From the NCBI RefSeq assembly GCF_945881795.1, contig NZ_CAMCVG010000004.1, positions 1-55,210 on the forward strand: a stretch of DNA of 55,210 nucleotides, given 5' to 3'. The notes below the pieces were generated by a model. That model saw only the letters and a program-made list of their open reading frames with translations, was not told the DNA's origin and ran no database searches. The position numbers and the translations under genes were made by a program. Shown piece after piece: positions 6,222-54,554 of the stretch (position 1 is the first letter of the stretch; every line of letters starts with the position of its first letter). Origin of the DNA: Rhodoferax sp. OV413. GTDB lineage: Bacteria > Pseudomonadota > Gammaproteobacteria > Burkholderiales > Burkholderiaceae_C.

Positions 6222-8963
6222 ATGTCTGACGACACCTCCTCTGCCCCCCGCCGCGAATACTCCAGCAGCGAACACGCCAACAGCGAAGGCGCCCGCCGCT
6301 TTGGTGCATCACCGCTGTGGGCGCTGCTTCGCAGCTTTTCGTGGCAAGAGCTGCGCCAGCACCCGTGGCGCAATGCGGCGGCGGTGGTGTCGGTGATGTT
6401 GGGAGTGGCGCTGGCGTTTTCGGTGCACCTGATTAACGCCTCGGCGCTGGACGAGTTCTCGCAGGCGGTGCGGTCGGTGGGCGGTCAGCCGGACCTGGAA
6501 CTGCGCATGGCCAACAGCAATGACGCCGTGCCGCTGGCGCTGTGGGGCCGCCTGCAGCGCGATGCGGAGGTTGCGCTGGCCGCGCCGGTGCTCGAGCTGA
6601 ACACCTACGCACGGCCGGACGCCCCCCCCGGCGAAAAGCGCGTCCTCCTGCGGGTGCTGGGCATAGACCCGCTGCAGGTGGCGCTGCTGGCGCCCGACCT
6701 GATGCCTATACAGGCCGCGCCGCCCGACGACACGCGCCAGCGCGAGCGGCTGGCCATGTTTGCGCCGGATGCGGTCTTCCTGAACCCGCTGGCCCGCCAG
6801 GCCCTGGGCGGGGGCCAGAGCGGAGAGCGCCTGCTACTGCAAAACGGGCTGTCGCTGCTCCGCGTGCGGGTGGCGGGGTCGATATCTGCCGGCGGAGCCG
6901 CGCTGGCGGTGATGGACATTGCGGCCGCGCAGGACCTGTTTGGCTTGGGCGAGCGCATCACCCGAGTCGACCTGCGGCTGCGCCCGGGCGTGGACCGCCA
7001 GGCATTGCAGCAGCGACTGCAAACTGCGGCCGACTGGCCCGCCGGTGCGACGCTGCGCGAGCCGGGTGACGCGGTGGCGCGCATCAGCAACCTGTCGAGG
7101 GCCTACCGGGTCAACCTCACGGTGCTGGCGTTGGTGGCTTTGTTTACCGGCGGGTTTTTGGTGTTTTCGGTGCTGGCGCTGAGCGTGTCAAGGCGCGCGC
7201 AGCAGTTTGCTTTGCTGGCGGTGCTCGGCCTGACCGGGCGCCAGCGCATGCAGCTGGTGCTGTGTGAGGCCGCAGGGCTGGGAGTATTCGGCAGTGTGCT
7301 GGGCCTGCTGTTGGGAACCGGCCTGGCCGCGCTGGCGCTGCGGCTGTTGGGCGGCGATTTAGGCGGCGGTTACTTCAGCGGCGCAGCGCCGGCCCTGCAG
7401 TGGAGCGCCTGGGCCGCGCTGGTTTTCGGGGCGCTGGGCACGGCGGCGGCGCTTTTGGGGGCATGGGGGCCTGCCCGCCTCGCAGAAAAACTGCCGCCGG
7501 CGCAAACGCTCAAGGGCCTGGGGCAGGCCGGGAGCGGCAGTGTTCAGCTGAGCATGGGGGCTTGCCTGCTGCTGGGCGGGCTGCTGCTGGCCCTGATGCC
7601 GCCGGTATGGGACATGCCGCTGGCGGCTTATTTCAGCGTGGCGGCCTTGTTGCTGGGCGGCATCATGAGCCTACCGGCGCTGGTGGGCGCGGTGCTGGAC
7701 CGGGTGGCGCCCTGGCTGGGGCGCAGCCTGCTGCCGCTGCTGGCGGTGGAGCGGGCCCGCCGCGTGCGCCAGAGCGCGGCCGTGGCGGTGAGCGGCGTGG
7801 TGGCGGCGCTGAGCCTGGCGGTCGCGCTGACGGTGATGGTGGCTAGTTTTCGCGGCTCGGTCATGGAGTGGCTGGACCAGGTGCTGCCGGCGGATCTGTA
7901 TCTGCGCACCGGGGCCGGCAGCGCCCAAGACAGCGCCTACCTCGACCCCGCCTTTGTGCTGGAAGCCGCGAAGCTCCCCGGTGTGGCGCGCGCAAGCACG
8001 CAGCGGGTTGTCAGCCTCTCGCTCGACGCGGCCAAGCCTGCGGTGGCTTTGATTGCCCGCCCGCTGCGCGACCCCGACGGGCGGCTCACGGTGCCGCTGG
8101 TGGGCGACGCGGTACCGGCGCCCGCGGGCAGCGTGGCGGTGTATGTGAGCGAGGCGGTAGTGGACTTGTATGGCGCGCGGGTGGGCCAGCCGTTTGAGGC
8201 GCTGGGCCGTGTTTTGGTGCCAAATAAGCCTCTAAGCCCCGCCGATATTGCGCAGAACGCTTCATTTTTTGTAGCAGGCGTATGGCGCGACTATGGCCGC
8301 CAAGGCGGCGCCATCACCATCGACCAGTCGGACTTTGAGCGCCTGCGCGAAGACTCGCGGGTCAACGACATGGCCTTCTGGCTGGCCGAACGGGGGACCG
8401 GGGAGGCCGAAGGAAGCAACGTAGCCACTCTGCAAGACCAGATGCGCGCGTTGGCGGACCGCCTGGCCGGCACGCCCGGCGGCGAGGCGGGGCGGCTGCT
8501 GGAGTTTGGCTCGGCGCGCGAGATTCGAGCCGTCAGCCTCAAGATTTTTGACCGCAGCTTTGCCGTGACTTACTGGCTGCAGGCGGTGGCCATTGCCATC
8601 GGGCTGTTCGGGGTGGCGGCCAGCTTTAGCGCGCAGGTGCTGGCGCGGCGCAAGGAATTCGGCCTGCTGGTGCACCTGGGGCTCACCCGGCGGCAGATTT
8701 TGCGGGTGGTCGCGCTGGAAGGCGCAGCCTGGACCACGCTGGGCGCACTCGCCGGCATCGCGCTGGGGCTGGCGGTGTCAGTGGTGCTGGTGCATGTGGT
8801 GAACCCGCAGAGCTTTCACTGGACGATGGAGCTCGCCCTGCCCTGGGGCCGCTTGGCCGCATTGGGCGCCGCCGTCATTGCCGCAGGCACGCTCACCGCC
8901 TGGATCGCCGGCCGCGCTGCCGCCGGGCGGGATGCGGTGATGGCGGTGAAGGAGGATTGGTGA
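6222..8963 (+). CDS. FtsX-family ABC transporter permease (YbbP-like)
   Basis: Large permease of 913 aa with two MacB/FtsX units. A first membrane segment near residue 50 (AAAVVSVMLGVALAFSVHL) is followed by a periplasmic domain. Membrane segments then cluster around residues 300-480 and again after 510, with a second periplasmic domain and the C-terminal FtsX block (FGVAASFSAQVLARRKEFGLL and following segments). This duplicated layout resembles E. coli YbbP, which pairs with the ATPase YbbA. The candidate ATPase is at 2017-2712. The stop overlaps the start of the AttH-like gene. Substrate unknown; lipid, lipoprotein or secreted factor transport are possible. The ATG at 6222 is divergent from the thi operon promoter region. 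Confidence 0.88.
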   Translation: MSDDTSSAPRREYSSSEHANSEGARRFGASPLWALLRSFSWQELRQHPWRNAAAVVSVMLGVALAFSVHLINASALDEFSQAVRSVGGQPDLELRMANSNDAVPLALWGRLQRDAEVALAAPVLELNTYARPDAPPGEKRVLLRVLGIDPLQVALLAPDLMPIQAAPPDDTRQRERLAMFAPDAVFLNPLARQALGGGQSGERLLLQNGLSLLRVRVAGSISAGGAALAVMDIAAAQDLFGLGERITRVDLRLRPGVDRQALQQRLQTAADWPAGATLREPGDAVARISNLSRAYRVNLTVLALVALFTGGFLVFSVLALSVSRRAQQFALLAVLGLTGRQRMQLVLCEAAGLGVFGSVLGLLLGTGLAALALRLLGGDLGGGYFSGAAPALQWSAWAALVFGALGTAAALLGAWGPARLAEKLPPAQTLKGLGQAGSGSVQLSMGACLLLGGLLLALMPPVWDMPLAAYFSVAALLLGGIMSLPALVGAVLDRVAPWLGRSLLPLLAVERARRVRQSAAVAVSGVVAALSLAVALTVMVASFRGSVMEWLDQVLPADLYLRTGAGSAQDSAYLDPAFVLEAAKLPGVARASTQRVVSLSLDAAKPAVALIARPLRDPDGRLTVPLVGDAVPAPAGSVAVYVSEAVVDLYGARVGQPFEALGRVLVPNKPLSPADIAQNASFFVAGVWRDYGRQGGAITIDQSDFERLREDSRVNDMAFWLAERGTGEAEGSNVATLQDQMRALADRLAGTPGGEAGRLLEFGSAREIRAVSLKIFDRSFAVTYWLQAVAIAIGLFGVAASFSAQVLARRKEFGLLVHLGLTRRQILRVVALEGAAWTTLGALAGIALGLAVSVVLVHVVNPQSFHWTMELALPWGRLAALGAAVIAAGTLTAWIAGRAAAGRDAVMAVKEDW
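8228..8276 (+). repeat. Possible degenerate palindromic element in the FtsX permease gene
   Basis: The stretch AAGCCTCTAAGC...GCGCAGAACGCTTC...TTTTTTGTAGC keeps the order of blocks seen in the other copies (GCCTC, GCGC, closing GTAGC) but the CAGCTA arm is lost. It encodes part of the second periplasmic domain (KPLSPADIAQNASFF). Weak candidate. Confidence 0.3.
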
Positions 8964-10108
8964 TTCGGGCCCTGAATCGCCGCCAGCTGCTGCTCGCGCC
9001 CGCCCTGGCTGCGGCCTTTCCGCCGGCGCATGGGCTTGCGCGCACCACCCTTCAATTTCCGCGCGACGCGGGTAGCCACAACGACTTCCAGACCGAGTGG
9101 TGGTATGTCACGGGCTGTGCCCTTGTGCCCGGAGCGACCGGTGCCGGTGGGGCCGCGCAGATGCTGGGGTTTCAGGTGACGTTTTTTCGCAGCCGGATTG
9201 CGTCTACCCAGGGCATGCAGTCGCGCCTGGCAGCGCGGCAGTTGCTTTTTGCCCATGCAGCGGCCACGGATGTGGACGGCAAAAAACTCTGGCACGACCA
9301 GCGAATTTCCCGCTGGTCCGGCGAAGCGCCGGGCCGCAACCCGGCCGACCTCGCATCCGCGAGCAGCACCGATACCGCCATCACCCTGCGCGACTGGCGC
9401 CTCCTGCGCGAAGGGCCCGACTTGCGCGCGCAGATTACCGGCGCAGGCTTCACGCTGGACTTGCGGCTGCAGGCCAGCCAACCCGTTTTGCTCCAAGGAG
9501 CGGACGGCCTCTCGCGCAAGGGACCGGAAGAAAAGCAGGCCAGCTATTACTACAGCCTGCCGCAACTGCGGGTGATCGGCAGCATTGCGCTGCAAGGCAA
9601 AACGCTCGCCCTACAGAGCGGCAGCACCGCCTGGCTGGACCATGAATGGAGCCAGGAAATGCTGCATCCGCAGGCGGTGGGCTGGGACTGGATCGGCATC
9701 AACCTGTTCGATGGCAGCGCGCTCACCGCATTTCAACTACGCGACAAAACCGGCGCTGCTCTCTGGGATGGCGGCTCTTTCCGCAGCGGTGGCGCGGGCG
9801 CGGGCGACGGTGCCGTTGCCGGGAAAAATCGCCCCTACATCTTCAGCCGCGGCGAAGTGGTCTTCAAGCCCCTGCGCCGCTGGACCAGCCCGCTCAGCAG
9901 AGCCAGCTATCCGGTCGAATGGATGGTGCGCACCCCGGCCGACTTCTACACCGTGAAAGCCATGCTCGACAACCAGGAACTCGATAGCCGCAACTCCACC
10001 GGCGCCATCTACTGGGAAGGCCTGTGCGAAGTCTGGGACAGCAACAACCGCCTGGTGGGCCGCGGGTATCTGGAGATGACGGGGTATGCGGGGGCGTTGC
10101 AGATGTGA
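8960..10108 (+). CDS. AttH/CrtC-like lipocalin-fold exported protein
   Basis: Start chosen at GTG 8960, five bases after AAGGAGG (8949-8955); a TTG three bases earlier is too close. The start overlaps the stop of the permease gene. The 382-aa protein opens with a basic stretch and hydrophobic segment (RRQLLLAPALAAAFPPAHG) that looks like a signal peptide. FQTEWWYVTG near the mature N-terminus and the later SGSTAWLDHEWS and WDWIGINLFDGSALTAFQLRD are hallmarks of the AttH/carotenoid 1,2-hydratase (CrtC-like) superfamily. No other carotenoid gene is present, so hydratase activity is unlikely; the coupling to an FtsX permease suggests an envelope lipid or hydrophobic ligand partner. Function inferred only. 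Confidence 0.85.
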   Translation: MIRALNRRQLLLAPALAAAFPPAHGLARTTLQFPRDAGSHNDFQTEWWYVTGCALVPGATGAGGAAQMLGFQVTFFRSRIASTQGMQSRLAARQLLFAHAAATDVDGKKLWHDQRISRWSGEAPGRNPADLASASSTDTAITLRDWRLLREGPDLRAQITGAGFTLDLRLQASQPVLLQGADGLSRKGPEEKQASYYYSLPQLRVIGSIALQGKTLALQSGSTAWLDHEWSQEMLHPQAVGWDWIGINLFDGSALTAFQLRDKTGAALWDGGSFRSGGAGAGDGAVAGKNRPYIFSRGEVVFKPLRRWTSPLSRASYPVEWMVRTPADFYTVKAMLDNQELDSRNSTGAIYWEGLCEVWDSNNRLVGRGYLEMTGYAGALQM

Positions 10109-10184
10109 GGCAGAGGTTGCGAGTCGTGCTAGGGGGCGCGTAGTCCATACTTACAGGCCCTCACGCCATCCACACCGCCCCCAC

Positions 10185-11963
<1,779 letters not shown>

Positions 11964-46273: not shown

Positions 46274-47203
46274 ATGACGCTCAACCTGCACCCCATGGCC
46301 AACGTGGCCATCAAGGCCGCTCGCGCTGCCGGCTCCATCATCAACCGCGCTGCGCTCGACATCGAGGCGGTCCGCGTGTCCCAGAAGAAGGCCAACGATT
46401 TCGTCACCGAGGTCGACCACGCAGCAGAGCAAGCGATCATAGAAACCCTGCTCACCGCCTACCCCGGCCACGGCATCTGGGCCGAGGAATCGGGCAACAC
46501 CCACGGCGCGCGCGACTCGGAATACGTCTGGATCATCGATCCGCTGGACGGCACCACCAATTTCATCCACGGCCTTCCGGTGTATTGCGTGAGCATTGCT
46601 CTCGCCGTTCGCGGCAAGGTGGAGCAAGCCGTGGTGTACGACCCCACCCGCAACGACCTCTTTACCGCCACCAAGGGGCGCGGCGCGTACCTCAACGACC
46701 GCCGCCTGCGCGTCTCCAAGCGCACCCATCTCAAGGACTGCCTCGTCTCCACCGGCTTTCCATTCCGCGAAGGCGACGATTTCCGCCACTACCTGACCCT
46801 GATGGGCGACGTGATGCAGCGCACCGCCGGCCTGCGCCGCCCGGGCGCGGCGGCACTCGACCTGGCCTATGTGGCAGCGGGTTACACCGATGGATTTTTT
46901 GAGCTGGGCCTGCAGGCCTGGGACGTGGCCGCGGGCTCTCTGCTGGTCACCGAGGCAGGCGGGCTGGTGGGTAACTTCACCGGTGACGCCGACTTCTTGG
47001 ACCAGCAGGAATGCATGGCTGCCAGCCCACGCGTCTACGGGCAAATGGTCAACGTGCTGGGCAAGTACAGCAAGTTTGCATCGGCCGGTGAAAAAGCGGC
47101 CCTGCGCCAGGCGCCGCCTGAGTCCCATGCCGAGGCTGCGGCAGAACCCGGAGCAGCAGCCGAAGCAGAATCCGCGCCCGAGGAACCCAGCGCGCCTTTC
47201 TAA
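46274..47203 (+). CDS. suhB: Inositol monophosphatase family protein SuhB
   Basis: Mg-dependent phosphatase. In E. coli SuhB also acts with NusA/NusB in rRNA antitermination. Start ATG 46274 ([20 protein letters not shown]). Metal sites: [26 protein letters not shown] (DPLDGT) and [16 protein letters not shown] (WDxAAG). The C-terminal 35 residues are Ala/Glu/Pro-rich and probably disordered. 309 aa. Divergent from trmJ. Confidence 0.95.
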
Positions 47204-48531: not shown

Positions 48532-50397
48532 TTAACCCAGTTGGTAGGCGGGCAGGGAAAGAATGACGTGCAGAAGATTGCGCAGGGCGTCTTCCATGTA
48601 GCTGTCAGCCCGCGCCAAATCGCCGGTGCCCAGGTCTTCGGTCAGCAGGAGCGCGAGCTTTTGGCGCACGCCCTCGGGCACCGGCGCCGACATAAACCGC
48701 AGCAGCAAGTGGTCCACGGCTTCTGCCGCGGTCTTGCACTGCGCCTGCCGCATCATCTGCGTGAGGCTGATCTGCGCGGTATCCCGCGGTATAGGCTTGA
48801 CCTTTTCAATGGCCTTGCGCCAGGCGTGGTAGCTGGCCAGACGGGTGTTGAAATCTTCTTCGCGGTCCACCTGCAAGGGCACAACCTTTTCCCCCATGGT
48901 CTTGCCCTCGGGCATGGTCGCGGTGCTGATGTCCATGCCACGCGCGAGTTTGTCGGCCACCGGAACAATCTGGTACAGCCCCCGGGGCACGCGATCGTTC
49001 GCCACAAAATCAATCGGCGGAAAAACCATGTCGTACATCACGTTGCCCCGCGCCAACAACAGGCCCGGCGTAATCCAGCTGCGGCCGTGGGCCCAGCCGG
49101 CCACGTTGGGCGGGTAAAACAGTTTCTGGCCCAGCAGTTCGGTCTGGTCATTGAAATCCGGCAGGCCCGGCACCGCGGTGATCCCGGCCTTTTTGTAGGT
49201 CGAAATCAGCAGCTCCACCGGCGGCTTGATACGCGTGGCGCGGGAGGCTGCGCTGTAAAAGTCGCGGGAGAGCAGCAGCGTCTCCATGAAGACGGCAATG
49301 TCGTAATTCGCATCGCGCAGCACCCGGCCCCACTGCTGCGCAAGCGCCGGAGACAGGTCTTCGCACACAAAAAACCGGTACAGCTTGCCCGCCAGAAAGT
49401 CAGCGGTCGCCGGCTGGGCCAGCAGGATGTCGACCACCTGCTCGCCATCAAAATTACCCGTGCGGCCCAGCACCGTCTTGGCACTGTCGTCATGCTGGTC
49501 GGGGTTCACCACAAAGCGCAGGTCCTTGTAGTTCCAGCCTGTGAATGCGCGGGCTGTTTCCTGGATGTCGCGCTCGGTGTAATGGCCCACGCCCATGGTG
49601 AATAACTCCATCACCTCCCGGGCAAAGTTCTCGTTGGCCGCGCCCTTGACGTTCACCCCCGCATCCAGATAGGAGAGCATGGCCGGATCGCGCGCCACCG
49701 CCAGCATCAGGCTGCGGAAGTCGCTGTTGGCATGGGCGCGCAGGGTCTCGTTTTGCAACTGCATCTTGCGGAAATCCCGCACCTTTTCTTCGCTGGTGGC
49801 GAAGTGACCGTGCCAAAACAGGGTGAGCTTTTCCTGCAGGGGGCGCGGCGTGGTGAGCATGCGATTGGCCCACCAATAGCCCAGGCGCTGTGTCTCCAGG
49901 CGCGAAGCGCGCAGCCAATACAAATAACGGTCTGCCACCTGTTGCGCGCGGCGGTTTCCCGCCGGCTTGACCTTCACCCCCAGCGCCTCGCCCGTGGCCT
50001 TGGCCAGGTCGGTGGCGGCGGGCCGCGAGCTGGCAAAGGGCTCCAGACCGTCGTCGTGCGCCTGGGATGCCTCGAAGGGCACAAACACATCGGGCACACG
50101 CTGGTAGCGCACCAGGCTGCGCACCGCCTGCTCAGGCGTCAGCCGTGCCAACTGCGCGACCTCCTGCGGCGTGCCGCCAAAGCCGGCGCGCTCCAGCAGG
50201 TGGCGCGCCATGGTGGCATTCCACTGCGCGGCCGGCAATGGCTTTAGCGCATCAGGATCGTCAGCCTGCGGGCCCTGTGCCCAAGCGGAACCGAACAGGC
50301 ATATCGCCAGCCACAAAGGCCCAAAGCGCCGCAGCGCTTTCATCAACGACCCAGCCAACGCCCCGATCATCCCCAACACTTCCGGACAGGACTTCAT
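48532..50397 (-). CDS. DUF1800 family exported protein
   Basis: 621-aa secreted protein; hydrophobic N-terminus (FGPLWLAICLFGSAWAQG) is a Sec signal. Marks: LLERAGFGGTPQEVAQLARLTPEQAVRSLV, in pieces, KLTLFWHGHFATSEEKVRD, NENFAREVMELFTMGVGHYTERDIQETARAFTGW, in pieces. The start at ATG 50397 overlaps the GntR stop (ATGA); an internal ATG at 50343 (MKALRRFG) could equally be the true start and would give a shorter signal. Pairs with DUF1501. Confidence 0.9.
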   Translation of the reverse strand: MKSCPEVLGMIGALAGSLMKALRRFGPLWLAICLFGSAWAQGPQADDPDALKPLPAAQWNATMARHLLERAGFGGTPQEVAQLARLTPEQAVRSLVRYQRVPDVFVPFEASQAHDDGLEPFASSRPAATDLAKATGEALGVKVKPAGNRRAQQVADRYLYWLRASRLETQRLGYWWANRMLTTPRPLQEKLTLFWHGHFATSEEKVRDFRKMQLQNETLRAHANSDFRSLMLAVARDPAMLSYLDAGVNVKGAANENFAREVMELFTMGVGHYTERDIQETARAFTGWNYKDLRFVVNPDQHDDSAKTVLGRTGNFDGEQVVDILLAQPATADFLAGKLYRFFVCEDLSPALAQQWGRVLRDANYDIAVFMETLLLSRDFYSAASRATRIKPPVELLISTYKKAGITAVPGLPDFNDQTELLGQKLFYPPNVAGWAHGRSWITPGLLLARGNVMYDMVFPPIDFVANDRVPRGLYQIVPVADKLARGMDISTATMPEGKTMGEKVVPLQVDREEDFNTRLASYHAWRKAIEKVKPIPRDTAQISLTQMMRQAQCKTAAEAVDHLLLRFMSAPVPEGVRQKLALLLTEDLGTGDLARADSYMEDALRNLLHVILSLPAYQLG

Positions 50398-51086
50398 GAT
50401 TTCCCTCGTGTAATTGGGGGCAGATCAGGCGTTTTGCCGCCGAGGCGCGCCACCATGAATCCCGCCGCGTGCATCAAATGGTTTCGTACCAGCGACTCGG
50501 CCAGATCGCCGTCGCCGGCCGCAATGGCTTTGAGCATGGCTTCGTGCTCGTCCCAGATGTCGCGCGGCTTTTCATCCTGGTTCAGCACCGCACCCATCAC
50601 ACGCTGGGTGTGGGTCAGGTGCGTCTCGAGGGCGGGCGCGATCAGCGGGTTGCCCGAGAGCGCATAGATAAACGCGTGCAGGCGCATGTCGGCGTCAATC
50701 ATCTTGGCAACCGCGCCGGCCTCCACCGCCTTGCGCCCCGCGGCAATCAGGGGCGGCCCTTCCTTGGCGGCGCGCGCGGCACCCAGCTCAGCTGCACGGC
50801 GGGCAGCCAGCCCCTCAATCACAGCGCGAATGTCATACATCTGGCGCACAAAGTCTGGGTCCAGGGGCGCCACCAGCAGCCCGCGGCCCGGGGCGTCTTG
50901 CAGCACGCCCTGATTGCGCAACAGCGCCAGCGCCTGCTGCACCGGCTGGCGGGATACGCCCAGCGACTGGGCAATTTGCTCTTGAATGATCCGCTCACCA
51001 GCCGGCATGGCCCCCGAGGCGATTTCTTCCAGAATGGCGTCGCGCACCTGCTCAACCAGGTTGGGTTGGATAACCAGTGTCTTCAT
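50394..51086 (-). CDS. GntR-family transcriptional regulator (FCD domain)
   Basis: Winged-helix DNA-binding N-terminus (EQVRDAILEEIASGAMPAGERI-IQEQIAQSLGVSRQPVQQAL) followed by an FCD effector domain with three possible metal-binding histidines. 230 aa. It is first in the DUF1800-DUF1501 transcription unit, overlapping by 4 bases, so it probably senses a small carboxylate-like ligand and controls this operon. Divergent from the mutS remnant. Confidence 0.92.
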   Translation of the reverse strand: MKTLVIQPNLVEQVRDAILEEIASGAMPAGERIIQEQIAQSLGVSRQPVQQALALLRNQGVLQDAPGRGLLVAPLDPDFVRQMYDIRAVIEGLAARRAAELGAARAAKEGPPLIAAGRKAVEAGAVAKMIDADMRLHAFIYALSGNPLIAPALETHLTHTQRVMGAVLNQDEKPRDIWDEHEAMLKAIAAGDGDLAESLVRNHLMHAAGFMVARLGGKTPDLPPITRGKS

Positions 51087-51217: not shown

Positions 51218-51313
51218 TTGAGTTCCAGCGAGAAAATCACCGCCCCGGGCCCTCAGGCCGCCGCCGCGCAGCACACGCCGATGATGGCCCAATACCTCGG
51301 GGGTATTTTGTAA
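51218..51313 (+). pseudogene. mutS: 5' remnant of mutS, interrupted by the island
   Basis: From TTG 51218 the frame reads LSSSEKITAPGPQAAAA then QHTPMMAQYL, then GGIL and stop TAA at 51311. HTPMMAQYL is the strongly conserved start of MutS, normally followed at once by LKAQHP...FYRMGDFYELF; none of that follows. A weak Shine-Dalgarno (TAGG near 51207-51210) precedes it. The rest of mutS is therefore either past the island, beyond the window, or lost. The reading frame is open further upstream, so the true start is uncertain. Confidence 0.75.
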
Positions 51314-51463
51314 GGCCCTATTTATGCGGGTTTAGGGGATTTGAAAATTTTCAGTCACCCCTTAGTGCGCTTCAGGAAGCAGATACTTTAGGACACTTTG
51401 GGAAGCACTCGGCGTTGCGTTCTAAGCTTACCAGACCCACTTCAAAGGCGGAGAATACAGCCC
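51299..51463. other. Left junction and non-coding end of the island
   Basis: Starts where MutS homology stops (about 51299) and is visibly AT-richer than the chromosome to the left. Contains AATACC-TCGGG-GGTATT (51291-51307), an inverted repeat across the junction that could be the recombination core, and short direct repeats such as ACTTT. No gene of its own is seen. The attachment site should recur at the right end of the island, beyond the window. Confidence 0.45.
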
Positions 51464-51904
51464 ATGGATGACAAAGTAACCCGCCTAAAAACGCCCGAAG
51501 AATGTGCCATCTTCATCGAGAACGTGGGGGCCAAATTTCCTGATCTGGCAGCACAAGCAAGGCGTCGATCCGTCGAGCTTAAAGCCTCATCCAAAGGAGC
51601 AACTAATGACGCCGAACGCGAAGCCTTGGAGGCTATCTATGCCGTTGAAGAAGTGATGACCCAACGCAACGGTAAAAAGACGCATGCATCACGCACGTGG
51701 CAAAGCATTCAAAGGCACGGCATCTTGCAAACCGTGGAAAGGGTTGTGGCAAGAAACAAGCCCACTGATGCCTATGAGGCTTTGGTCGAAATGGGCATGG
51801 ATGACTTCACCTTTGAAGCGGTGGTGACCCAACACCCCGAACACTTTGCACCTGAAACTCTTGCCATTGCCAAGAAGCGTCTTGCTGAGCTTCAAGCCGG
51901 ATGA
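51464..51904 (+). CDS. 146-aa unknown protein of a mobile-island type
   Basis: Starts ATG 51464 (MDDKVTRLKTPEECAIFIENVG). Entirely helical-looking, without membrane or signal segments. Conserved-looking parts include ARRRSVELKA, EALEAIYAVEEV, KKTHASRTWQSIQRHGIL and DDFTFEAVVTQHPEHF. I recall close relatives carried on genomic and defence islands, but no function. It is the first gene of the island after the mutS junction and is followed by 247 bases of non-coding DNA, so it is probably monocistronic. Confidence 0.8.
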   Translation: MDDKVTRLKTPEECAIFIENVGAKFPDLAAQARRRSVELKASSKGATNDAEREALEAIYAVEEVMTQRNGKKTHASRTWQSIQRHGILQTVERVVARNKPTDAYEALVEMGMDDFTFEAVVTQHPEHFAPETLAIAKKRLAELQAG

Positions 51905-52151: not shown

Positions 52152-52301
52152 ATGTCATGGCACCATAAAAAACACGCTAAACGAGTGGAACGCCTCAGAA
52201 ACAGCACCGTGCAGACACTGTTGGCATTGACATGGGACGACTTGTATCTTGATTCCGGCAGAGCAACCGAGTGTTGCCCAATTCTCAACACTGGGGCTTG
52301 A
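52152..52301 (+). CDS. Possible 49-aa ORF overlapping the helicase start
   Basis: ATG 52152 follows GGAGG at 52138-52142 with 9-base spacing, the best ribosome site near the helicase. It reads MSWHHKKHAKRVERLRNSTV and ends TGA 52301, 53 bases into the helicase frame. N-terminal third is His/Lys/Arg-rich, with no recognised family. It may be a leader that brings ribosomes to the TTG start of the helicase, or, if a frameshift occurs, an N-terminal extension of it. Confidence 0.4.
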   Translation: MSWHHKKHAKRVERLRNSTVQTLLALTWDDLYLDSGRATECCPILNTGA

Positions 52302-54354
52302 TGCCCACTACCGCACAGGCGAACGCGACCCTGTGGGCGGCTTTTACCAGCCGTGTTTGAGTGCTGCGATTCGGTATTCCAGAGCTGTTGGCTACTTTAG
52401 AAGCAGCATTTTTAGCATTGTTGGGCGTCCCTTTTTGGAGTTTGCTCGGCGTGGCGGCACAGCCCGGTTGGTTTGCTCCCCGTCGATCACCGAGGATGAT
52501 GCTCAAGCCATTGCCTCTGGATACCTAAGCCGGGATGATGCCATTGCTCAAGCACTCGATCGTGACCTTCAAGAGCTTTTGTCTGAACCTGCACTGGAAT
52601 CACGCACCAAACTGCTGGCCACATTGATTGAATGCGGCTCTCTCGACATCCGCTTAGCCGTCAGAAGCAACGGCACTGGCATCTATCACGAGAAGATTGG
52701 CATCTTCACTGACGGAGTCGGAGAACGGGTGAGCTTTATTGGCTCCTCCAATGAAACCTGGAGTGCCTGGCACACCCAAGGCAACCACGAATCCATTGAA
52801 GTGTTTCGAGAGTGGGTTAGCTCCGCAGAATCAGAGCGAGTGCAAACCCATGCAGCCCACTTTGAGCGGCTGTGGGATGGACTTGTCATCGGTGTGGACA
52901 CCGTTGCATTCCCTGAGGCACAACGCAAAAAGCTTTTAACCACTGCCACAAACTCCTTGGACGATGTGGATGTGGACTTTCCTGATGAGCCGATTGCCCC
53001 TGCCTCTAGGCGACGCTCACCCATGGAGCACCAACTTGCTGCCATTGCCGCTTGGGAGGCGGCGGGCCGTCATGGAGTGTTTGAACATGCCACTGGAAGT
53101 GGCAAGACCTTTACGGCCATTACAGCCATAAAGAAGCATCTGGCCTCTGATCAACCTGCCATCGTATTGGTGCCAAGCCAGCTTTTGCTTGAACAGTGGC
53201 GTCGAGAGATCGAGGAAGAAATCCCTGACTCCACGATCCTGATGTGCGGTGGCGGTCACACGAAATGGAAAACAAACGGAAAGCTTAGGGCTCACACCAG
53301 TCCTGACCTTGGCATGAATCGAATTGTGCTTTCGACCATGCAAACAGCAGCGACTGACACCTTTATCAATGGTGTCTATGGTGGCGACCACCTTCTTATC
53401 GTGGCTGATGAGATTCATCAAATTGGTAGCCCATTCAACGCAAGAGCCATGGCCATTCAGACAGGTGCAGCCCTTGGGTTGTCCGCTACGCCTATTCGAT
53501 ATGGAGACCCAGAGGGAACAGCCAACATCTTCAAACGATTTGGTCCAGTGCTTCCGCCCCCAATTACTCTTCAAAACGCCATCGACTCAGGCAGGTTGGT
53601 CAATTACGAATACCACCCTCACCCGGTGCACTTGAGTGAGGATGAGGCAGAGCGATGGAAGAAGCTCACAAAGCAAATCAGCTTTGAGCTTGCCAAGAGC
53701 AAAAAGGCCGTCAATGGCAACGGAGGCTTGACCGACAAAGCCAAAATGCTTTTGATCCAACGCTCAAGAATTGCCAAGAAAGCTCAAGTGAAGCCGGGTT
53801 TGGCCGCAGGAATCATTTGCAAAGAGTATGAACCCGGTCAGCGTTGGCTTGTCTATTGCGAAGACTCGGATCAACTTAGTGAAACCATGGGACTGCTCAC
53901 GGACGGCGGCCTTCACCCGATTGAGTATCACTCAGGGATGGAAGGAGACCGCCCCGCAGCACTGGAGTGGTTCACTCGCTTTGGTGGTGTCTTAGTGTCC
54001 ATCAATTGTTTGGATGAAGGCATTGACATCCCGGCAGTGAGCCACGCATTCATCTTGGCTTCCTCACAAAACCCCAGACAATTCATTCAGCGGCGTGGGC
54101 GAGTCTTACGCAAGTCTGGACAAAAACTGCTGGCTGTCATTCATGACGCCATCGTTGTGCCTGTTGACGCTGAGAATGAACCTGAACAAATTGCACTGCT
54201 GAAAGCCGAGATGATTCGAGCACTTCAGTTTGCTGACGCTGCACTCAATAAAGGTGCAGGCTCCCGCCTACGCTCACTGGCTCTGTCCATGGGCATCACG
54301 ATTGATGAGGCCCCTAACGCGGGCATCGAAGATGAAGGAGATGAAAAAGAATGA
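52249..54354 (+). CDS. PLD-like nuclease / DEAD-box helicase fusion
   Basis: 701 aa. N-terminal phospholipase-D domain with a single HKD-like motif: HEK at residues 147-149, then GSSNE at 165-169 (the paired Asp is one residue displaced from canonical spacing). After residue 260 a superfamily 2 helicase: ATGSGKT near 281 (Walker A), VADEIHQIG near 387 (DEIH box), GLSATP, and QFIQRRGRVLR near 614 (motif VI). Proteins of this domain pair are common in DNA-defence loci. Only TTG 52249 fits as start because a stop lies in frame just upstream. The stop overlaps the next gene by 4 bases. Confidence 0.9.
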   Translation: MIPAEQPSVAQFSTLGLDAHYRTGERDPVGGFYQPCLSAAIRYSRAVGYFRSSIFSIVGRPFLEFARRGGTARLVCSPSITEDDAQAIASGYLSRDDAIAQALDRDLQELLSEPALESRTKLLATLIECGSLDIRLAVRSNGTGIYHEKIGIFTDGVGERVSFIGSSNETWSAWHTQGNHESIEVFREWVSSAESERVQTHAAHFERLWDGLVIGVDTVAFPEAQRKKLLTTATNSLDDVDVDFPDEPIAPASRRRSPMEHQLAAIAAWEAAGRHGVFEHATGSGKTFTAITAIKKHLASDQPAIVLVPSQLLLEQWRREIEEEIPDSTILMCGGGHTKWKTNGKLRAHTSPDLGMNRIVLSTMQTAATDTFINGVYGGDHLLIVADEIHQIGSPFNARAMAIQTGAALGLSATPIRYGDPEGTANIFKRFGPVLPPPITLQNAIDSGRLVNYEYHPHPVHLSEDEAERWKKLTKQISFELAKSKKAVNGNGGLTDKAKMLLIQRSRIAKKAQVKPGLAAGIICKEYEPGQRWLVYCEDSDQLSETMGLLTDGGLHPIEYHSGMEGDRPAALEWFTRFGGVLVSINCLDEGIDIPAVSHAFILASSQNPRQFIQRRGRVLRKSGQKLLAVIHDAIVVPVDAENEPEQIALLKAEMIRALQFADAALNKGAGSRLRSLALSMGITIDEAPNAGIEDEGDEKE

Positions 54355-54554
54355 CCACCGATAACGATCAAGACATGGCTTTAGCCGCCCTGCGGTCCGC
54401 TTCTGCTGACGTAGAGGCCACTTTGCCGGAGAGCTTTGTTGCGGCCACCTATGCCATTCAACGCCGCCATCAATTCAATCAGGATCAAACAGCCTCGCTG
54501 CACGACCTGGAGAAGCTTGTGGAAGATCACCTAGGGCAAGGAGAAGCAAAATGA
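54351..54554 (+). CDS. 67-aa acidic protein within the helicase-ATPase operon
   Basis: Starts MTTDNDQDMALAALRSASAD; acidic, helical, without membrane segments. ATGA overlaps on both sides show it is translated with its neighbours and in similar amounts, so it may be a subunit or adapter. I do not recognise a family. Confidence 0.75.
   Translation: MTTDNDQDMALAALRSASADVEATLPESFVAATYAIQRRHQFNQDQTASLHDLEKLVEDHLGQGEAK

Follow-up and report, generated by a model that had tools for sequence, protein, structure and literature searches.

The 55,210-nt window analyzed here is the entire contig C4 of the Rhodoferax sp. OV413 draft genome (G000; Burkholderiales, 2.35 Mb in 148 contigs, 97.7% complete), and it carries near its right end an orphaned 5′ end of the mismatch-repair gene mutS, with AT-richer DNA bearing Pbe-type defence genes directly 3′ of it (Table 1). 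The MutS beginning (LSSSEKITAPGPQAAAAQHTPMMAQYL) is opened by a TTG codon at 51218 and is followed by GGIL and a stop; the frame thus closes with HTPMMAQYLGGIL and the stop codon, whose last base is 51313, and the orphan as a whole reads ...AQHTPMMAQYLGGIL before that stop. The MutS-like stretch is lost at the last base of a 22-bp core (51279–51300), the end of the stop codon lying 13 nt beyond it, and the GC content drops at the stub from 0.63–0.67 (48–51 kb) to 0.51–0.53 (51–55 kb). An earlier note, made from this DNA alone, had described a MutS-type frame broken off into AT-richer DNA, and this description held, with the break at the core end.

Table 1. Features at the mutS stub and in the adjoining part of the window
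Feature	Position	Strand	Evidence or remark
suhB-like gene (name presumed), synteny marker for the native mutS position	46286–47200	+	gene order in the genus
GntR/FCD regulator, host side, upstream of and divergent from the stub	50394–51086	−	Pfam FCD, GntR
Orphaned host mutS 5′ end (stub)	51218–51313	+	TTG start; LSSSEKITAPGPQAAAAQ-HTPMMAQYL, then island-read GGIL and stop
22-bp core, attachment site at the island's stub end, within the HTPMMAQYL codons	51279–51300	+	exact copy at G000:C76:8873–8894 (minus)
Island DNA, stub-side end, truncated by the contig end	51301–55210		GC 0.51–0.53 versus 0.63–0.67 leftward; other end, as inferred, G000:C76, about 8895–10370
146-aa open reading frame (ORF) adjoining the attachment site	51464–51904	+	no Pfam, PADLOC or PHROGs family
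PbeA-like protein (PLD-like and helicase)	52249–54354	+	PADLOC PDLC02707, E 2.4e-206; Pfam ResIII, Helicase_C; PLDc_2 slightly below cut-off
67-aa ORF between the PbeA- and PbeC-like genes	54351–54554	+	no family match
PbeC-like/DndD-like ATPase, first 220 aa, truncated by the contig end	54551–55210	+	PADLOC PDLC02725, E 4.2e-109, profile 1–218 of 646

The single MutS_I domain match of the genome was found on another contig, C76, in a mutS gene of 883 codons counted from its ATG and with all five Pfam MutS domains. Its product begins MEKTTTFDPAAPGLN-HTAMMAQYL, with the first 15 codons unlike those of the orphan, and a tyrosine integrase gene diverges from it, starting 235 nt upstream of the mutS ATG (396 codons to the contig end; PHROGs phrog_1, E 8.5e-14; Arm-DNA-bind_3, 38.6 bits). 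Stub and C76 gene have in common an exact 22-bp run, CGATGATGGCCCAATACCTCGG, flanked by sequences identical at 20/45 positions on the left and 10/33 on the right. Exactly two matches to the core pattern were found in the 2.35-Mb genome, at C4:51272–51297 (+) and C76:8876–8901 (−), and none to the reversed control pattern; the insertion point falls within the HTPMMQQ-type codons of mutS. The rest of mutS and the second junction copy, which the earlier note had suggested seeking on the far side of the island, were both located on C76, and its proposal of an island in the mutS 5′ end is supported by the integrase beside this mutS and by the core at both ends. The note had also envisaged that a full-length mutS elsewhere might make the window fragment a mere duplicate. 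The full-length gene does exist, and the second part of that idea fails, because the 5′ end of the C76 copy sits at the integrase and differs from that of the stub. On this sequence comparison, the C76 mutS is the other half of the stub's gene and not an independent duplicate.

The two contigs were further related through gene order. An uninterrupted GntR–mutS arrangement, which the earlier note had suggested seeking, was not found among genus relatives: GntR homologues (E ≤ 1e-20) occur in 6/61 genus genomes, our own included, and none lies within the flanking DNA, at most 1.5 kb, of 30 genus mutS loci. With a 1-kb DNA query, matches were obtained in 30/103 genus genomes, again including our own, which alone among the matches listed spans both GntR and the mutS start. 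For this reason the order of the gene at 46286–47200, presumably suhB, was adopted as the synteny marker. Matches to suhB and mutS share a contig in 16 genus genomes, and in 16/16 of them suhB is found 2.7–15 kb upstream of mutS in the same orientation (3 of these mutS matches are truncated by a contig end, and one match was typed where a genome had two), and in the window the end of suhB is 4.0 kb from the stub. The largest distance, 15 kb, belongs to a genome (G026) that itself has a 9.8-kb island there. We infer that C4 and C76 carry the two ends of one island.

Relatives of the integrase were found at the same place. When 84,980 species genomes were scanned in a way that detects close relatives only, 12 were found, with 50–61% identity and all 12 divergent to a mutS 5′ end. 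In a profile search of 399 family genomes, in which no more than four candidates were scored for any one genome, six genomes had a match at E ≤ 1e-40, all six at mutS and with identity down to 33%; these include our own genome and two of the 12 scan relatives. A partial relative with 36% identity was found in G011. When all cases were pooled, 17 distinct integrases (our own and 16 relatives) were obtained, and 17/17 diverge from mutS. Among the 12 scan relatives, the neighbouring mutS ends at a normal stop in nine (853–933 codons, counted from the core), whereas in three the frame is still open where the contig ends.

Islands lying entire on a single contig, from the stub to the integrase and the restored mutS, were recovered from a genome of the same genus (G026; 9.8 kb, with mutS running off the contig), a Polaromonas metagenome-assembled genome (G062; 42.4 kb) and Curvibacter delicatus NBRC 14919 (G067:C8, about 51.6–96.4 kb; 44.7 kb), the last belonging to the same family as our genome (Comamonadaceae, Burkholderiales, according to NCBI). 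Stubs on contigs separate from the integrase were found in Extensimonas (G066) and in G072. A looser core pattern gave a second copy in 3/12 relatives' genomes (G066, G070, G072), of which the G070 copy was rejected as a stub, being a mutS truncated by the contig edge. For the remaining relatives, among them the partial islands of G063, G064, G068 and G069, no far end was found. The search for the HTPMM pattern gave no match in G340, where the frame has HTPVM. In phages and plasmids, distant integrase relatives only were detected (22.7–22.9% identity in 6/50,697 phage records; 22.7–41.3% in 4/72,556 plasmid records), and in viral contigs none, five pattern-matching stretches leaving 0 confirmed; there is thus no sign that the element is a phage.

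The leader supplied to mutS by the element is open, in frame and provided with at least one start codon in 13/13 elements (L001, L007–L018). A start-region signature like TTGATTTCAAAGGAAAA precedes the core by 54–77 nt in all 13 with at most 5/17 mismatches to a consensus derived from the same 13 sequences, and is weakest in L012 and L013, which are equalled by 5% and 2% of shuffles, respectively. In 6/6 pairs of stub and mutS, the HTPMM codons are in the same frame on both sides and 18–24 of 27 core positions agree; clean excision should therefore give an in-frame full-length mutS. Two close pairs, compared for signs that the leader evolves as coding sequence, gave 5 substitutions (0, 2, 3 by codon position) and 6 (2, 1, 3). 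The sole in-frame start of the C. delicatus stub (L105, near 15639) is a TTG three codons before the core, which suggests that its native mutS start may have decayed, and island loss could therefore harm mutS in that strain. The word AGTCCCC/GGGGACT occurs in 12/13 gaps between integrase and mutS (L001, L007–L018), compared with at most 7/13 for the best word in 100 crude 2-mer-block shuffles, and several gaps hold two copies 53–63 nt apart. It was not assigned as an arm site of the integrase, since its core GGGGAC/GTCCCC is present in just 2/6 stub-side ends, that of the window being without it.

Taken together, the locus is very probably the product of an integrative element that its own tyrosine integrase placed within the HTPMM codons of mutS and that replaces the start of the gene, as opposed to acting as an off switch like the streptococcal island SpyCI; mutS probably still works. 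In the sequence, the host mutS start, for which the leader of the window stub is presumably the native one, is stranded at the far (window) end and stops just past the core. At the integrase end, the element supplies a start codon and a leader in frame, by which the full 883-codon MutS is encoded, and a promoter within the about 280 nt between integrase and core may drive the gene. The integrase would excise the element through the core, and a clean excision would bring the stranded start back into frame with mutS. The predicted outcome is a swap of the control region and of the first 15–18 MutS residues, and not a switched-off mutS. The earlier note had envisaged two outcomes, a mutS restored through a new start at the far end of the island or a mutS left off: the former is supported by the five-domain gene and divergent integrase on C76, and the latter is not supported, the frame being full length here and in nine of the 12 scan relatives and open to the contig end in the other three.

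Several observations weigh against this interpretation and bear on other explanations. C4 and C76 are unjoined in the assembly. The interior of the island is absent, just the first third of PbeC having been found, and the C76 integrase is truncated by the contig end, so that its C-terminal catalytic part is not visible. Moreover, suhB and mutS matches lie on separate contigs in 30/46 genomes having both, our own included, and because mutS lies deep inside a long contig in some of these (e.g. G034:C4:122394), the two genes are not adjacent everywhere. Unjoined contigs and a full mutS elsewhere in the genome are also what would be expected if the stub were a scrap of mutS arising by chance or duplication, or came from a chimeric assembly, and were unrelated to the C76 gene; this is extremely improbable given that the stub occupies the suhB-syntenic mutS position, that the 22-bp core is exact and has the integrase at its other copy, and that a like arrangement exists on single contigs in three other genomes.

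A further difficulty is that no sigma-70-like promoter was found in 311 nt scanned on both strands, where 0.2 were expected. The lack of a consensus promoter in the gap between integrase and mutS is in line with an island that silences mutS while integrated and reactivates it on excision, and so is its location, since SpyCI likewise occupies the beginning of a mismatch-repair gene, mutL (PMC3430984). The earlier note had considered a mutator switch of this kind. None was evident. The integrated and the cleanly excised states should both code for a full MutS; given the full-length frame with an island-side start, together with 13/13 open in-frame leaders and a conserved start region that a silenced gene would not need, a SpyCI-like off switch is very unlikely. 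The length of the shared core is also uneven among the pairs, the longest exact run being 22, 21, 20, 15, 11 and 6 bp in G000, G067, G062, G066, G072 and G026. The short runs of the last two leave room for imprecise exchange, by which excision might frameshift a mutS that works while integrated and yield a hypermutator, as in Vibrio splendidus 12B01, with which site and anatomy are shared (PMC5296598). Exchange within the common stretch would nevertheless keep the frame in 6/6 pairs, and Chu et al. report no scar in three other species; we regard scarring as unlikely here. The replacement of the mutS start by the element thus remains our preferred explanation.

Elements of this class are already known. 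Mobile elements that interrupt mutS at its HTPMMQQ codons have been reported from hundreds of Beta- and Gammaproteobacteria, in which the element supplies a promoter and a start for mutS (Chu et al., 2017, mBio, PMC5296598), and the present element is a further member. The elements of that paper are like ours in the HTPMMQQ site, the orphan host start at the far end, the element-supplied mutS start and the integrase beside mutS, as well as in their varied cargo, theirs extending over 4 to >150 kb. Excision was reported to be scar-free in E. coli 536, P. putida F1 and B. multivorans CF2 and to leave a hypermutating 2-bp scar in V. splendidus 12B01; unlike in the latter, no 2-bp offset is seen between the two ends here. 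The cargo here differs in including Pbe or BREX-2 defence genes, and the words BREX, defense, restriction and phosphorothio are absent from the main text of PMC5296598. In E. coli 536, we found a like anatomy, with a stub (MSTIENFDAHTPMMH and stop) separated from mutS by about 14.8 kb and, divergent from that gene, one for a protein with Arm-DNA-bind_3; BLASTP of the C76 integrase against this short (249 aa) protein gave no similarity (E 0.27), both having the Arm-DNA-bind_3 domain.

The mutS insertion site was reported in Burkholderia in 2008 (PMC2612704): GI8c of B. pseudomallei MSHR305 and Bt-GI4 of B. thailandensis are likewise site-specific insertions at mutS, and their 15-bp repeat falls on the same codons (ACGCCGATGATGCAG). 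Unlike our element, GI8c was described as a putative prophage, and the portion of PMC2612704 at hand makes no statement on a restored mutS start for either island. The dusA-targeting islands and IMEVchUSA3, and SXT in prfC, use other target genes (PMC8409611, PMC4482086; SXT as cited in PMC8409611), and for dusA a weaker expression was measured after island insertion. SpyCI resembles our element in occupying the 5′ end of a mismatch-repair gene and differs in its target, mutL instead of mutS; in strain SF370 mutL is not transcribed as long as SpyCI is integrated, and one decayed SpyCI has an internal promoter by which mutL is rescued (Scott et al., 2012, PMC3430984).

The cargo at the stub side is of the Pbe type (Table 1). 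The position of the 67-aa ORF between the PbeA- and PbeC-like genes suggests that it is PbeB, albeit without a profile match. The remainder of PbeC was not found in the same assembly, and dndC (TIGR03183) had no match in the genome; the modification half of the Pbe system was thus not seen and may lie within the missing island interior. Pbe genes are reported as part of an archaeal defence based on phosphorothioation (PMC6459918).

Cargo ORFs of the relatives' islands were called mechanically at ≥110 aa, with family names that are library labels and not tested functions. By these labels, the C. delicatus island matches BREX type 2 (PglW, PglX, PglZ, BrxHI), IetAS, MAD6 and AbiEi. The Polaromonas island encodes a TrwC relaxase and a coupling protein, and also ArdC, a second integrase, Shedu SduA and two cytosine methylases. 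The G026 island carries a cytosine methylase, a type I restriction R-subunit-domain protein, a RelA/SpoT-domain protein and an NA37 nucleoid-associated protein. Genes in G063, G064, G068 and G069 were not counted as cargo, because no far end was found there and chromosomal genes may be included. Gene content thus differs from island to island, defence genes come up repeatedly, and one of the islands appears to be mobilizable. The Polaromonas island (L100–L102) also holds two S24 peptidases and a polymerase of the ImpB/MucB/SamB type, a UmuDC-like set by family, irrespective of adjacency; error-prone repair-type genes are thereby aboard an island that sits in a mismatch-repair gene.

Leaders of the element type were also observed in the absence of such an integrase. 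For comparison, the 30 best-scoring genus loci less L023 were taken, which gave 29 mutS genes lacking this integrase in an upstream flank of 1.0–1.5 kb (just 0.1 kb for L042). The signature was found exactly at −54 relative to the core in 3/29 of these genes (L037, L041, L045) and likewise in two stubs, those of the window (51218–51234; 5 mismatches) and of G072 (4 mismatches), and was absent at this position from the other 26 genes and four stubs. Where it occurs with no integrase of this family nearby, or in a displaced stub (L037, L041, L045, the window stub and L114 near 2411), the signature is possibly a relic of earlier elements. On a tree of MutS bodies (43 rows, long branches), L037, L041 and L045 stand next to different relatives, and two of them have common upstream DNA, presumably pirin-like, at 71% over 287 nt, their MutS bodies being far apart. 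Neither the element-bearing nor the leader-only mutS genes cluster as a single group on this tree; 500/500 label shuffles gave values as low, which makes the test uninformative. Elements may have left leaders behind in these genes, or may once have taken their leader from such hosts. It is conceivable, if rather doubtful, that in these bacteria the beginning of mutS acts as a revolving door, repeatedly replaced by elements and with leaders outlasting integrases, by which mismatch repair would repeatedly have come under the start and control regions of mobile, defence-carrying DNA; the seemingly native starts in the window and in G072 may then be leftovers themselves.

What is new is therefore not the class of element; it is this member, its defence cargo and the element-type leaders in three mutS genes without such an integrase nearby. 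No title or abstract beginning in the searched literature was on the defence cargo of mutS elements, which argues only weakly that no such report exists. The mutation rate is under the control of mutS to a large extent, and an element that swaps the control region and first residues of mutS at entry and exit could tune this rate, or could alternatively make the host dependent on keeping the element. The members described here show that the class also carries anti-phage defence, Pbe in our genome and BREX-2 in C. delicatus, and as one whole island resides in the named culture-collection strain C. delicatus NBRC 14919, the question of expression is testable there.

At the left edge of the window, the contig begins inside a 346-codon frame (3–1043, +). 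The earlier note had placed part of mutL there, and by eye the frame does look like a MutL C terminus. The end of mutL, so judged, and the start of mutS are about 50 kb apart. Between them, on the same contig, a block of lower GC content (0.53–0.62) spans 12001–33000 and is perhaps another island.
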